A DNA stretch of 16,540 bases from assembly GCA_903929895.1 (NCBI GenBank), contig CAIYWM010000628.1, positions 1 to 16,540 of the forward strand, written 5' to 3'. Below the pieces are notes generated by a model, which saw nothing but the letters and a program-made list of their open reading frames with translations, searched no databases and had not been told where the DNA came from. Both the position numbers and the translations under genes were made by a program. The DNA is from an uncultured Alphaproteobacteria bacterium (GTDB lineage: Bacteria > Pseudomonadota > Alphaproteobacteria > Reyranellales > Reyranellaceae). This document shows, piece by piece, positions 5,717 to 10,934 of the stretch. The first letter of the stretch is position 1; every line of letters begins with the position of its first letter.

Positions 5717-7315
5717 CTACTCCGCGGCCTGCTTCAGCGGATCGGTGCCCGGCGGGTTGTTCGAGGGCTTCCAGCGCAGGATCGGCTTGCGGGCGGCCAG
5801 CGTCTCGTCGAGACGGCGGCGCGGCGCGTAGAGCGGCGCCGCCTTGAAGTCTTCGGCAGCGGTGCCGGTCTTGGCCTTGGCCGTGAGCGAGCGCAGCGCG
5901 CCGATGAACTGGTCGAGGTCTTCCTTGGCCACGCTCTCGGTCGGCTCGATCAGCATCGCGCCATGCACCACCAGCGGGAAGTACATGGTCATCGGGTGAT
6001 AGCCCTCGTCGATCATCGCCTTGGCGAAGTCGAGCGTGCTGACGCCGGTGTCCTTGAGGAAGCTGTCGTCGAACAGCGCCTCGTGCATGCACGGTCCCTC
6101 GAAGGCCGGGCTCATTACGTCCTTGAGGGCCGCCATCACATAGTTGGCGTTGAGCACCGCGTCCTCGGCGACCTGCCTGAGACCGTCGGCGCCATGGCTC
6201 ATGATATAGGCGAGCGCCCGCGTGAACATGCCCATCTGGCCGTGGAAGGCCTTGAGGCGGCCGAGCGGCAAGCCGTCGACCTTGGCGCCGTCTTCTGCAA
6301 CGTGCCACTTGTCGCCGTCCTTCACGATCCACGGATAGGGCGCATAGGGCGCCAGCGCCGCCGACAGCACCACCGGTCCCGCGCCCGGCCCGCCGCCGCC
6401 ATGCGGCGTCGAGAAGGTCTTGTGCAGGTTGATGTGCATGCAGTCGATGCCGAGATCGCCCGGCCGCACGCGGCCGACGATGGCATTGAAGTTGGCGCCG
6501 TCGCAGTAGAAATAGGCGCCCGCCTCGTGCACGGCCTTGGAGATCTCGACGATCTCGCTTTCGAACAGACCGCAGGTGTTGGGGTTGGTCAGCATGATCG
6601 CTGCCACGTCGGGACCCAGCGCCGCCTTGAGCGCGGCGAGGTCGACGCGACCGCGATCGTTGGCCGGGATCGGCTTCACGACGAAGCCCAGCGCCGCCGC
6701 CGTTGCGGGGTTGGTGCCGTGCGCCGATTCGGGCGCCAGCACGGTCTTGCGCTTGGCGCGCTCGCCCTTGGCCTCGAGCGCCGCGGCGATCGCCATCATG
6801 CCGCACATCTCGCCATGCGCGCCGGCGGCCGGCGACATCGCCACGGCCGGCATGCCGGTCAGGGTCTTGAGCCAGTGCGCCAGCCCGTCGATCAGCTCCA
6901 GCGCGCCCTGCACGGTCGAGACCGGCTGCAGCGGATGGAGATCGCCGATGCCGGGCAGGCGCGCGACCTTCTCGTTGATGCGGGGATTGTGCTTCATCGT
7001 GCACGAGCCCAGCGGGTAGACGCCCATGTCGATGGCGTAGTTCTTCTGGCTCAGCCGCGTGTAGTGCTGCACCACCTGCGGCTCGGACAGGCCAGGCAGG
7101 CCGATCTCACCCTTGCGGCGCAGGCCGTTCAGCCGCTCCTTCATCTTCGGAGGCTCGGGCAGGTCGACGCCGCAGCGTCCGGCCTGGCCCATCTCGAAGA
7201 TCAGCGGCTCCTCGAGCTGGAGCGCGCGGTTGCCGGTATAGGTGCCGTGCGTGTTGACGGAACCCGCGGAGACACTGCCAGCGCGTCCCTGGCTGCGGTC
7301 GAGCGACTGTACCAT
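5717..7315 (-). CDS. gcvPB: Glycine dehydrogenase (decarboxylating) subunit 2, P protein C-terminal half
   Basis: This subunit carries the pyridoxal phosphate of the glycine decarboxylase step, in which glycine is decarboxylated and its aminomethyl group passed to lipoyl-GcvH. The PLP lysine is in NLHKTFSTPHGGGGPG (K299). Other family landmarks are AIDMGVYPLGSCTMKHNPRI (about 94-113), SPAAGAHGEMCGM, APESAHGTNPATAAALGF, NPNTCGLFE and YCDGANFNA. The start is taken as ATG 7315, which overlaps the gcvPA stop as TGATG and has AAGGAGGT with a 7-nt spacer to GGAGG. A GTG one codon upstream (7318) is a close alternative but sits too near the Shine-Dalgarno. The product is 532 aa and works as a complex with GcvPA. 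It is the last gene of the gcv operon; a 14-bp hairpin follows the stop. Confidence 0.97.
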   Translation of the reverse strand: MVQSLDRSQGRAGSVSAGSVNTHGTYTGNRALQLEEPLIFEMGQAGRCGVDLPEPPKMKERLNGLRRKGEIGLPGLSEPQVVQHYTRLSQKNYAIDMGVYPLGSCTMKHNPRINEKVARLPGIGDLHPLQPVSTVQGALELIDGLAHWLKTLTGMPAVAMSPAAGAHGEMCGMMAIAAALEAKGERAKRKTVLAPESAHGTNPATAAALGFVVKPIPANDRGRVDLAALKAALGPDVAAIMLTNPNTCGLFESEIVEISKAVHEAGAYFYCDGANFNAIVGRVRPGDLGIDCMHINLHKTFSTPHGGGGPGAGPVVLSAALAPYAPYPWIVKDGDKWHVAEDGAKVDGLPLGRLKAFHGQMGMFTRALAYIMSHGADGLRQVAEDAVLNANYVMAALKDVMSPAFEGPCMHEALFDDSFLKDTGVSTLDFAKAMIDEGYHPMTMYFPLVVHGAMLIEPTESVAKEDLDQFIGALRSLTAKAKTGTAAEDFKAAPLYAPRRRLDETLAARKPILRWKPSNNPPGTDPLKQAAE

Positions 7316-8661
7316 CACAGCACCTCCTTCAGGCCGGCGATCAGCGGGTCCATGCCCGCGTCGGTCGCCGTTTCGGTCGCCGCCAGCAGCAGCAGGTTCG
7401 AGACCGAGGGATCGTTGGGGATCAGGCGCGACACCGGCAGGCCGCCCAGGATGCGCTTGGCCGCCAAGGCTTCGACCACTTCGGCCGCGGGCTTCGGCAG
7501 CTTCACGGTGAACTCGTTGAAGAAGCTGTCGTTCAGCACCGAGACGCCGGGAAGTGCAGCGACCCTGTCGGCAAGCTGCGAGGCCTTGGCGTGATTGAGT
7601 TCGGCCAGCCGCGTGAAGCCCGCCTCGCCCAGCAAAGTGAGATGCACCGTGAAGGCCAGCGCGCAGAGGCCGGCATTGGTGCAGATGTTGGAGGTCGCCT
7701 TCTCGCGCCGGATATGCTGCTCGCGCGTGGACAGCGTGAGCACGAAGCCGCGCTTGCCGTCGGCATCGACGGTCTCGCCGACGAGGCGTCCCGGCATCTG
7801 GCGCATGTACTTGTCGCGCGTCGCGAACAGGCCGACATAGGGACCGCCGAAACCCAGTCCGTTGCCGATCGACTGGCCTTCGCAGACCACGATGTCGGCG
7901 CCCATCTCGCCCGGCGGCATCAGCAGCCCCAGCGAAACGACTTCCGTCACCACGACGATCAGCAGCGCGCCGGCAGCGTGGCAGGCTTCCGCGAGCTTGG
8001 TGAAGTCACGGACATGGCCGAAGAAGCTCGGGTTCTGCACGACCACGCAGGACGTGTCGTGATCGACGGAGGCGATCAGGTCTTCCAGGCCCTCGGCATC
8101 CGTCTTCGAGAAGTTCGCCGTGAAGCCTTCCCACTTGGCCGTGGTCTCGATGATGCTGCGATACTGCGGATGCAGCCCGCCCGAAATCAGCGCCTTGTGG
8201 CGGCGCGTGACCCGGTTGGCCATCAGCACCGCCTCGGTCGTGCCGGTCGAGCCGTCGTACATCGAGGCATTGGCGACTTCCATGCCGGTGAGCAGGGTCA
8301 CCTGGGTCTGGAACTCGAACAGGTACTGCAGCGTGCCCTGGGTGATCTCGGGCTGATACGGCGTGTACGAGGTCAGGAACTCGCCGCGCTGGATCATGTA
8401 GTCGACGGTCGCCGGCACATGATGGCGGTAGGCGCCGGCGCCGATGAAGAACGGCGTGCTCGCGGGCGACAGGTTCCTGGCCGCGAAGCCCTGGAAGGCA
8501 CGCTCGACTTCGAGCTCGCCCTGGTGATCGGGCAGGCCGCCGACCTTGGCCGCCAGCCGCGCCGACGCCGGCACGTCGCGGAACAGTTCGTCGACCGACT
8601 TCGCGCCGATCACGCTCAGCATCTCGCGGCGGTCGGCGTCGGTGAGGGGGAGATAACGCAT
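7315..8661 (-). CDS. gcvPA: Glycine dehydrogenase (decarboxylating) subunit 1, P protein N-terminal half
   Basis: This 448-aa partner of GcvPB together with it replaces the single-chain P protein of E. coli. Family motifs are [10 protein letters not shown] (74-83), [12 protein letters not shown] (98-109), [10 protein letters not shown] (135-144), [10 protein letters not shown] and, near residue 320-345, a [19 protein letters not shown] segment. It has the aminotransferase fold but lacks the PLP lysine, which is in GcvPB, as normal for split enzymes. ATG at 8661 is preceded by AAGGAG about 10 nt upstream. It overlaps gcvPB by one base, so the two subunits are probably made in equal amounts by coupled translation. 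Unlike the other gcv junctions, its 144-bp gap to gcvH holds an inverted pair of palindromic repeats. Confidence 0.97.
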
Positions 8662-8805: not shown

Positions 8806-9183
8806 CTAGCCGAGGCTCTTCACGAAGGCTTCGTAGGCGGCCTCGTCCATCAGGCCGGCGAGTTCGCCCTTGTCGGCGAGCTTCAGCTTGAAGAACCAGC
8901 CCTTGCCCGTCGGCTCGACATTGACGTCGCCCGGCGTGTCGGCCAGCGCCGCATTGCTCTCCACGACCTCGCCGGAGGCCGGCGCGTAGATATCGGAAGC
9001 CGCCTTTACCGATTCGACGACGGCGCAGGCTTCGCCCTTGGCGACCGTGCGGCCGGCGGCCGGCACGTCGACGAACACGACGTCGCCGAGCTGCTCCTGG
9101 GCATACTGCGTGATGCCGATCGTGCCGACATCGCCCTCGACGCGGATCCACTCATGCTCTTCGGTATACTTGGTCTCGGCCAT
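8806..9183 (-). CDS. gcvH: Glycine cleavage system H protein
   Basis: This 125-aa lipoyl carrier shuttles the aminomethyl group from P to T protein and is then reoxidised by dihydrolipoyl dehydrogenase. The lipoylated lysine is K60 in [15 protein letters not shown], the usual motif. N-terminal [20 protein letters not shown] and C-terminal [10 protein letters not shown] also match the family, and length is normal. ATG at 9183 follows the gcvT stop by 9 nt, with an AGGAGA Shine-Dalgarno that overlaps the gcvT TAG, so expression is tied to gcvT. Downstream repeats may change the ratio of gcvT-gcvH to gcvPA-gcvPB mRNA; H is known to be needed in excess over P. Confidence 0.98.
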
Positions 9184-9192
9184 CTTGATCTC

Positions 9193-10314
9193 CTATCCGC
9201 GGTAGTAAGTGTGTTTGACGAAGGGCATGGGCACGATCTCGGCCGGCACGGGCTTGCCGCGCACCATCAGATCGACCTTGGTTCCGTTGGCTGACTGGCT
9301 GCGCTCGACGTAGCCCATGGCAATGGCGCGCCCCAGCGTGGGCGAGAAGCCGCCCGAGGTGACGATGCCGACGGTCTTGCCGTCGATCACGATCTCCGCG
9401 CCCTCGCGCGCGATCGCCTTGCCTTCGGGCAGCAGGCCGACCCGCTTGCGCGTCGAGCCCTCGGCGATCTGCTTCTGGACGGTCGCGGCGCCGGGGAACC
9501 CGCCCTGCACGCGACGCTCCTTGCCGACGCTCCACAGCAGCACCGCTTCGACGGGCGTGGTGGTCGTGTCGATGTCGTGGCCATAGAGGCAGAGCCCGCC
9601 CTCGAGCCGGAGCGAATCGCGGGCGCCCAGTCCGATCGGCTTGACCTCGGGATGGCTGAGCAGCTTGCGCGCGATGGCGTCGGTCTGCTCGGCCGGCGTC
9701 GAGATCTCATAGCCGTCGCCGCCGGTGTAGCCCGAGCGCGTGACGTAACAGCGCGCGCCGTCGATCTCGACATAGGCGCCGGTCATGAACTTCATGGTGG
9801 CGACCTGCGGCACCAGCCGCGACAGCACCGTCGACGCCTGCGGTCCCTGCAGTGCCAGAAGTCCGCGTGAAAACATCGGCTCGACCTCGCAGGTCGCCGA
9901 GAGATGCTTCTGCATGTGCGCCAGATCGGCGTCCTTGCAGGCGGCATTGATGACCACCAGCAGGTGATCGCCCGCGTTGGTCACCATCAGATCGTCGAGG
10001 ATGCCGCCGGCGTCGTTGGTGAACTGGGTGTAGCGCTGCTGGCCCGGCTGCAGGCCAGCGATGTCGCCCGGCACCAGGGTCTCCATCGCCTTCGCCGCGT
10101 TCTGGCCGGGCTTCGCGGTGAGCCGCACCTGGCCCATGTGCGAGACGTCGAACAGGCCGCAGGCGGTGCGGGTGTGAGCGTGTTCGACCAGGATGCCGGT
10201 CGGGTACTGGACCGGCATCTCGTAGCCGGCGAACGGCACCAGGCGCGCGCCCAGCTCGCGATGAAGATCGTAAAGCGGCGTGCGCTTCAGGGGGCCGGCG
10301 GTGGGTTCGGTCAA
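9193..10314 (-). CDS. gcvT: Aminomethyltransferase (glycine cleavage T protein)
   Basis: GcvT takes the aminomethyl group from lipoyl-GcvH and makes methylene-tetrahydrofolate and ammonia. Motifs are LKRTPLYDLHRELGARLVPF, GLFDVSHMGQ, the NDAGGILDDLMV segment with the catalytic Asp region (about 100-111), SRGLLALQGPQA, RSGYTGGDGYEI, LGARDSLRLEGGLCLYGHDI and a C-terminal barrel (SGGFSPTLGRAIAMGYV). The preferred start is TTG at 10314 (373 aa), because GGAG lies six nt before it and the protein then begins MTEPTAGPLKRTPLY like its relatives. A longer reading from another TTG (10371) lacks a Shine-Dalgarno and adds an unrelated-looking leader. It is the first gene of the operon, about 80 nt downstream of a tandem glycine riboswitch. 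Confidence 0.95.
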   Translation of the reverse strand: MTEPTAGPLKRTPLYDLHRELGARLVPFAGYEMPVQYPTGILVEHAHTRTACGLFDVSHMGQVRLTAKPGQNAAKAMETLVPGDIAGLQPGQQRYTQFTNDAGGILDDLMVTNAGDHLLVVINAACKDADLAHMQKHLSATCEVEPMFSRGLLALQGPQASTVLSRLVPQVATMKFMTGAYVEIDGARCYVTRSGYTGGDGYEISTPAEQTDAIARKLLSHPEVKPIGLGARDSLRLEGGLCLYGHDIDTTTTPVEAVLLWSVGKERRVQGGFPGAATVQKQIAEGSTRKRVGLLPEGKAIAREGAEIVIDGKTVGIVTSGGFSPTLGRAIAMGYVERSQSANGTKVDLMVRGKPVPAEIVPMPFVKHTYYRG

Positions 10315-10393
10315 AAGAGTCTCCGTCGAAGTCGCGTTGAACGCGACCGGAGTCGCGCCTTCACGACGCAAGGACTGCGCCGTTCGCGACCCC

Positions 10394-10585
10394 CTCTGTC
10401 CGGAGACCTGAAAGATTCGCCGAGCCTCAAGTGAGGCAAATCCGGCTTACTTCGTCGGTGGGCGTGCGCCGAATGGGGCGTCCGCCACTTTCCAGAGACC
10501 CATCCTCCTGCGGTCCGTTTGCCTGAGAGTTTCCGGGGCCGGTTGCTCCTTCGGCGCCATCCTCGCGGATGGGCTCTCCCACAGG
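10394..10585 (-). ncRNA. Tandem glycine riboswitch upstream of gcvT
   Basis: On the minus strand, aptamer 1 spans 10585-10507. Its P1 is CCTGTGG / CCGCAGG, followed by GAGAG, a CCATCC-GCGA-GGATGG hairpin, CGCCGAAGGAGCAA and CTCTCAGGCAAACGGAC. Aptamer 2 spans about 10497-10394. Its P1 is CTCTG / CAGAG, with GGAAAG, CACCGACGAAGTAAGC and AATCTTTCAGG pairing with AAAG, then GGACAGAG. The linker is about 9 nt. Both match the known glycine aptamer core and lie directly before gcvT, the usual place. Aptamer 2 is atypical: the usual A-rich stretch after CAGG is TCTCC. That stretch is complementary to the gcvT ribosome-binding site. A 7-bp hairpin (10331-10347) separates aptamer 2 from the Shine-Dalgarno, and no terminator with a T run is seen, so translational control is favoured. 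Confidence 0.93.
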
Positions 10586-10603
10586 GATCGTCTGGGTGAA
10601 CCG

Positions 10604-10632
10604 ACCATAGGCAGGGCCCTCATCGGCGTCCA
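10604..10632 (-). promoter_or_regulatory. Predicted promoter of the gcv operon
   Basis: On the minus strand, TGGACG (10632-10627) is followed after 17 nt by TATGGT (10609-10604), each matching four of six consensus bases. Transcription would start about 10-12 nt before the first riboswitch stem. The position is right and the boxes are only moderate. Confidence 0.45.
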
Positions 10633-10683
10633 CGCACAAAGCCGGCGACCACGCTGAAATCGCGGGAAAAGAGAACGCACCAC

Positions 10684-10712
10684 TTGAAATTGAGTGAACA
10701 CTCACATATTTT
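10684..10712 (+). promoter_or_regulatory. Predicted promoter of the small ORF/tetR transcript
   Basis: TTGAAA (10684-10689) and TATTTT (10707-10712) are 17 nt apart. The local sequence is unusually AT-rich for this genome. The palindrome at 10691-10704 fills the spacer and the one at 10714-10727 covers the expected start point, so bound repressor would block polymerase. Confidence 0.55.
10691..10704. promoter_or_regulatory. Palindromic operator 1 (likely TetR-family site)
   Basis: TGAGTGAACACTCA is a palindrome: six-base arms TGAGTG and CACTCA around AA. It lies between the -35 and -10 boxes of the predicted promoter upstream of the TetR-type regulator. It shares its layout with sites at 10714 and 10874. 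Confidence 0.6.
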
Positions 10713-10713
10713 A

Positions 10714-10727
10714 TGAGCGCTTACTCA
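10714..10727. promoter_or_regulatory. Palindromic operator 2
   Basis: TGAGCGCTTACTCA keeps the TGAGYG-N2-YRCTCA pattern of operator 1, 23 bp downstream centre to centre, just after the -10 box. About two helical turns separate the sites, which would allow two dimers to bind on the same face. Confidence 0.55.
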
Positions 10728-10742
10728 CTTATGGAGGTTGGC

Positions 10743-10934
10743 ATGTTCATCCGCCGGTCATTCGACGAATTCTCCAAGCTTCACACCGACGCAGCCCCAC
10801 AGGACGCGCGGCCCGACTGGGTGATCGACTGGCGCTGGCTGTCGACGGAAAGCGAGAGTCCCTCTTTTCCGAGTGAGCGCTCCCTCATAGGATGCGGGGC
10901 ATGGGCAAAGCCGAAGAGACGAAAGCCCGCGTAG
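10743..10934 (+). CDS. Small hypothetical protein, leader ORF of tetR
   Basis: The product is 63 aa and I do not recognise it. ATG at 10743 has a good Shine-Dalgarno, GGAGG (10733-10737), 5 nt upstream, and lies just downstream of the predicted promoter and operators. The sequence starts MFIRRSFDEFSKLHTDAAPQ, has a Trp/Asp-rich middle (DWVIDWRWLSTESES) and a basic end (WAKPKRRKPA). There is no signal peptide or membrane segment. The 3' end overlaps the tetR start by 34 nt in a different frame and contains the third operator-like site, so translation of this ORF could affect tetR translation. The ribosome-binding site and promoter support it; the lack of a recognisable family argues for caution. 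It could be a true small protein or only a leader. Confidence 0.45.
   Translation: MFIRRSFDEFSKLHTDAAPQDARPDWVIDWRWLSTESESPSFPSERSLIGCGAWAKPKRRKPA
10874..10887. promoter_or_regulatory. Operator-like site 3 before tetR
   Basis: TGAGCGCTCCCTCA repeats operators 1 and 2 with one weaker base in the right arm. It is inside the small ORF and ends 13 nt before the preferred tetR ATG, where a bound protein would act as a roadblock. The imperfect arm makes it less certain. Confidence 0.4.

Follow-up and report, generated by a model that had tools for sequence, protein, structure and literature searches.

The second glycine aptamer ahead of an alphaproteobacterial gcvT operon is complementary to the Shine-Dalgarno stretch and covaries with it, suggesting a translational ON switch

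How the folding of a riboswitch could be passed on to the ribosome-binding site of the gene behind it is the question raised by the locus described here, a window of 16,540 nucleotides from an uncultured alphaproteobacterium (contig CAIYWM010000628.1) in which a tandem glycine riboswitch precedes the operon gcvT-gcvH-gcvPA-gcvPB on the minus strand. A preliminary description of this sequence had pointed to the gcvT ribosome-binding region, CGGAGAC (10325-10319), as exactly complementary to a segment of aptamer 2, GTCTCCG (10407-10401), and its coordinates are right to the base, the second being the exact reverse complement of the first on the minus strand. It is likely that the riboswitch is a translational ON switch for the glycine-cleavage operon, in which the segment J3/1 of aptamer 2 masks the Shine-Dalgarno (SD) stretch until this aptamer folds.

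Both aptamers, which like all leader features below lie on the minus strand, exceed the gathering score of family RF00504 (Rfam 15) and have its P1, P2, and P3 architecture. The covariance-model scoring that had been proposed earlier gave 68.6 bits for aptamer 1 (10501-10591) and 42.9 bits for aptamer 2 (10394-10497) against a threshold of 32, with 48.7 bits for the latter over 10505-10386. Aptamer 1 has a consensus-like J3/1, CAGGCAAACGGAC. Aptamer 2 reads CAGG-TCTCC-GGAC where the consensus has CAGG-CAaaa-GGAC, giving a J3/1 of CUCCGGA against AaaaGGA in the model, and the replacement of the A-rich stretch noticed earlier is therefore borne out by the family alignment. An A-rich J3/1 is the consensus of the family rather than a strict requirement, and the UCUCC of the window's aptamer 2 departs from it. 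In the same alignment the 3' strand of P3 ends with G10407 and U10406, and 10405-10401 fall in J3/1, so that the anti-SD strand GUCUCCG (10401-10407) sits inside aptamer 2, between P3 and P1. The RF00504 model ends at P1 and its flank, and the SD lies outside it. The 3' strand of P1, CAGAG (10394-10398), is partnered by CUCUG (10497-10493), and a comparison of folds shows that P1 and the helix between J3/1 and the SD are mutually exclusive unless pseudoknotted; the two would presumably exclude one another in the cell as well. A conserved G run is also found at the P1 end of aptamer 2 (10394-10390). According to the available text of PMC13104608, after Torgerson et al., such a G run and the C tract of the P3b loop form a pseudoknot in 66% of aminomethyltransferase glycine riboswitches.

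A seven-letter match is by itself weak evidence for a regulatory pairing. The SD windows of 5 of 55 other, unrelated families also give runs of at least seven pairs with the window's J3/1, because both strands are built around GGAG/CTCC. The complementarity could on these grounds be a by-product, J3/1 being pyrimidine-rich for reasons of the aptamer and every SD being purine-rich. What speaks to this is whether J3/1 fits the SD of its own leader better than that of others, and the duplex energy of the GG+J3/1 strand was calculated against the window from -24 to +3 of the gcvT start, in its own leader and in exchanged leaders. The gcvT starts were set by SD strength and codon, ignoring J3/1. 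The input comprised 263 sequences (the window, L033-L112, L113-L168, L169-L214, and L215-L294; L001-L032 were left out), of which 203 gave an aptamer 2 and a GcvT-like start and 60 lacked at least one of the two. Dropping a further 9 left 194, each with a start and with no fewer than 25 bases following aptamer 2, and these hold 82 distinct J3/1. Family labels were entered by hand for 85 loci, 79 of them within the 194, which yields 56 leaders at one per family. The sampling covers part of the riboswitch matches in the class, which occur in at least 119 of 192 genomes.

With a single leader for each distinct J3/1 (n=82), the mean energy is -8.33 as against -7.06 +- 0.21 for exchanged partners, and at one per family (n=56) it is -8.64 as against -6.82 +- 0.24 (z=-7.6); in neither case did any of 5000 shuffles reach the observed mean. 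The result holds when the window's own family is excluded (n=55, z=-7.2), and none of 1000 shuffles of the J letters within species reaches the observed mean. Outside the genus of the window both strands are altered together, as in GGUCACC with GGUGACC (L050, L202, L203, L204, and L210), GGUUCCC with GGGAACC (L098 and L294), and GGUCGUG with CACGACC (L282), while GGUCUUCGG (L096) and GGUUUGAGCG (L230) are matched with wobbles or bulges. A chance match is rejected by the permutations at one leader per family, and the compensatory changes on both strands, together with the failure of exchanged partners and shuffled letters to reproduce the mean, make the by-product explanation very improbable. 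By this measure, the J3/1 of aptamer 2 and the SD region of the same leader have changed together across the Alphaproteobacteria.

The signal is also localized. In a scan along aptamer 2 it peaks around the GG+J3/1 strand (offsets -3 to +6; z of -5.0 to -7.8, 0 of 2000 shuffles each), the segment that corresponds to GUCUCCG in the window, and in a scan along the leader it is strongest at -18 to -5 (z=-5.1) and -12 to +1 (z=-6.2), with neighbours at -2.5 to -3.0. Controls with the linker (z=+0.6), the J3/1 of aptamer 1 (n=54, z=-1.6), and a reversed window (z=-1.1) remain weak. Several observations nonetheless weigh against a simple reading of the covariation. Two controls lean the same way, namely coding sequence (z=-1.8, 179 of 5000) and a reversed J (z=-2.1, 38 of 2000), as do windows of aptamer 2 lying 18, 24, and 27 letters upstream (z of -2.2 to -2.7, the other windows being within 2), and together these suggest a small effect of composition. 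The shuffles also retain deep phylogeny. Furthermore, the signal is an average and not universal, the SD of the same leader coming within the top 10% of partners in 18 of 56 families. Runs of at least six pairs are found in 18 of 56 families (shuffled mean 6.5, maximum 13 in 200) and runs of at least seven in 7 (shuffled mean 1.7, maximum 6), and several leaders, for example L172, L191, and L258, have almost no pairing between J3/1 and the SD.

The overlap of an aptamer core with an anti-SD strand had been thought unusual, and in this respect the preliminary description does not hold. At one leader per family, three or more A occur in J3/1 of aptamer 2 in only 3 of 56 cases, compared with 40 of 54 for aptamer 1, and pyrimidines make up a fraction of 0.73 of the five letters that follow GG in aptamer 2 as against 0.37 in aptamer 1, the aptamer-1 segments (54 of the 56 families) having been cut with a simple pattern that is imperfect in some rows. 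The replaced A-rich stretch is therefore common in the class and no quirk of the window. An A-rich J3/1 was rejected as the norm for aptamer 2 in most of the class; the exceptions with at least three A amount to 12 of 194 leaders, among them the Rhodobacterales- and Sinorhizobium-type L066, L089, L104, L105, and L106. On balance we favour the view that, in the majority of Alphaproteobacteria, the J3/1 of aptamer 2 has become an anti-SD strand that goes on evolving, where the core tolerates many J3/1 and selection tunes the segment to the gcvT ribosome-binding site of each lineage. If true, this role would explain why the A-rich stretch has been lost from aptamer 2 far more than from aptamer 1. 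In the phylum beyond the Alphaproteobacteria, 12 loci were read, a sample too small to test, and CAGGCAAAAGGACAG is found in 6 of them (L299, L300, L307, L312, L321, and L322), assigned to aptamer 2 by its ending. L297, from another class of the same phylum, has a pyrimidine-rich J3/1, GGUUCCCG, facing CGGGAGCC and then a GcvT-like start, which may hint that the rule reaches past the class.

Closer to the window, GcvT comparison gives Reyranella as the nearest named relatives (97% for a Reyranella metagenome-assembled genome and 94% for R. aquatilis). A riboswitch match is present in 56 of the 61 genomes of the genus that were searched, the window's own included, with two or three matches each, and the retrieved set consists of 55 complete leaders and an end fragment. 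Aptamer 2 reads CAGGTCTCCGGAC in all 55 full leaders as well as in the window. Since J3/1 is invariant in the genus, the test within it is one-sided. Genome G020 contributes both L131 and L168, with a second copy of aptamer 1 running into a contig end, perhaps through a split in the assembly.

Conservation on the SD side was followed in 57 distinct leaders selected for the window's J3/1 (78 with duplicates), one of which, L206, is from another genus. All 57 read GGAG(A/G)(C/T)(C/T) at the SD, the GGAG columns being the anchor of the alignment and hence invariant by construction. The three columns 3' of GGAG hold A/G in 55/2, C/T in 53/4, and C/T in 39/18 leaders, so that 24 of 171 cells vary, and pairing with J3/1 is retained in every one. 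These variants are transitions throughout, which keep the pair in any case; the telling point is that transversions are missing. All four letters occur in each of the following three columns, and in the two columns 5' of GGAG the pairing is broken in 14 and 38 of the 57 leaders. Counting wobbles, the contiguous pairs between J3/1 and the SD number 7, 8, and 9 in 14, 32, and 11 leaders, respectively. Of the checks that had been suggested, conservation of the pairing is thus seen within the genus and covariation beyond it.

Between J3/1 and the SD lies a spacer hairpin (10349-10393), GGGGUCGCG...CGCGACUCC, which forms in the minimum free energy (MFE) fold and whose arm patterns, GGGGUCGC...GCGAC, are each kept in 56 of the 57 leaders, the exceptions being L121 and L117. 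A local CTCCG (10353-10349), considered as a second anti-SD, falls within this hairpin in the window's MFE fold. A second hairpin, GUCGCGU-UCA-ACGCGAC (10331-10347), is a perfect 7-base-pair hairpin as had been described, and it was credited with bringing the two strands together. It occurs in the window and 10 other leaders (11 of 57, or 12 with a looser pattern) and was rejected as a conserved element in favour of a lineage-specific add-on, the spacer hairpin being the one that is kept. The earlier interpretation was largely right about the pairing, and it is the supposed rarity of the arrangement and the part given to the second hairpin that have to be given up.

Folding calculations favour the masked state. 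In the MFE folds of the 3' fragment, which begins at CAGG and runs to the start codon, 7 to 9 of the 9 GG+J3/1 letters are placed on the SD in all 78 leaders, duplicates included. J3/1 also lies on the SD when the window's leader is folded with both aptamers or as the 3' fragment alone. When folded from aptamer 2 to the start, however, this leader gives an MFE structure in which the 5' strand of P1, and not J3/1, is on the SD. This strand (10501-10492), GGGUCUCUGG, nearly repeats the sequence of J3/1 (GGUCUCUGG as against GGUCUCCGG) and could pair with the SD too; it reads GGGTCTCTGG in 56 of the 57 leaders. It could therefore be the masking strand, or share that role. We regard this as improbable because adding aptamer 1 returns J3/1 to the SD and because the free ensemble averages 6.3 pairs between J3/1 and the SD over the 57 leaders. 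In the same set the SD is unpaired with a mean probability of 0.02 when the 5' strand of P1 is barred, which rises to 0.39 once P1 is formed and J3/1 is held open. It counts against the proposed switch that the forced ON fold frees the SD with a probability above 0.5 in just 14 of 57 leaders and costs a median of 5.6 kcal/mol over the P1-barred fold, the energy of the ligand and of tertiary contacts lying outside the calculation. Ligand binding and contacts within the aptamer dimer would have to cover this cost.

Masking by J3/1 would then work as follows. As long as glycine is absent, CGGAGAC would be held across the spacer hairpin in a helix with the P3/J3-1 strand of aptamer 2 (GGUCUCCG), so that the ribosome-binding site stays hidden. 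Glycine is expected to bind aptamer 1 first and aptamer 2 next, by analogy with published cases. In glycine-bound aptamer 2 the formation of P1, P3, and J3/1 would withdraw the strand and open the ribosome-binding site. We infer control of translation in the ON direction, with glycine most likely freeing the SD; such a switch would suit a catabolic operon. The earlier proposal of such a switch remains the likeliest reading, given the 3'-fragment folds, a simple consensus scan that found no intrinsic terminator in 10150-10900, and precedent from Neisseria gonorrhoeae.

In the gcvT riboswitch of N. gonorrhoeae, as far as the available text of PMC13104608 describes it, tandem aptamers also lie ahead of gcvT, a stretch of aptamer 2 base-pairs with the region just 5' of the start, no Rho-independent terminator is predicted, and the switch is a translational ON switch, as is proposed here. 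Mutating either strand raised GcvT without glycine (PMC13104608), and the mechanism is accordingly not new but belongs to a known kind of switch, for which the evolutionary evidence is here unusually strong. The two differ in that the segment here comprises the end of P3 and J3/1, with covariation with the SD across a class, and in that the gonococcal switch was tested with mutants while the window's is known from sequence and folding. Alternatively, the leader may work mainly at the level of the transcript, in a Rho-dependent or RNase-linked manner, with masking of the SD merely uncoupling translation. The lack of an intrinsic terminator in the scan agrees with this, and in the alphaproteobacterium Gluconobacter oxydans grown in complex medium RNA sequencing coverage of the 5' untranslated region ahead of gcvT was 60-fold that of the gcv open reading frames, according to the accessible portion of PMC5756330, which indicates an effect on the transcript in that species and tells against purely translational control. 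The covariation is, however, centred on the SD itself, although that is compatible with masking either way, and the glycine response of N. gonorrhoeae is reported to survive the Rho inhibitor bicyclomycin (PMC13104608). A mainly transcript-level mechanism is therefore unlikely, if still to be reckoned with, and by analogy a share of the control at that level is possible. From what can be seen of PMC2258182, translation attenuation is the most common mechanism outside the Firmicutes. The gcvT riboswitch of Bacillus subtilis likewise has tandem aptamers and one expression platform in a gcvT operon (PMC5666159, in its available text).

Expression platforms usually vary too much for comparative proof, and the published tandem model, in the available part of PMC6944388, excludes the platform. 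Because the switching strand is in this case part of the alignable aptamer, its coevolution with the SD offers direct evidence, from evolution, on the workings of a large group of glycine riboswitches. A literature search, in which subscription journals were incompletely covered, found no report of class-wide coevolution of J3/1 and the SD. The case also carries a warning that consensus aptamer models may take a regulatory strand for a degenerate part of the aptamer core.

The operon itself is made up of gcvT (9193-10314; 373 amino acids; NCBIfam PRK13579 at 540 bits, cut-off 459), gcvH (8806-9183; TIGR00527, 152 bits), gcvPA (7315-8661; NF001696, 602 bits), and gcvPB (5717-7318; NF003346, 685 bits), all on the minus strand. 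The start of gcvT is most likely the TTG at 10314-10312, judging from a gap of six letters between it and GGAG (10324-10321) and from the called starts of the 57 leaders, which are TTG in 55, ATG in 1 (L127), and GTG in 1. Elsewhere in the window, on the plus strand (587-2776), is a 729-amino-acid protein with several rhodanese-like stretches whose best NCBIfam match, at 133.5 bits, is far under that model's cut-off of 449.
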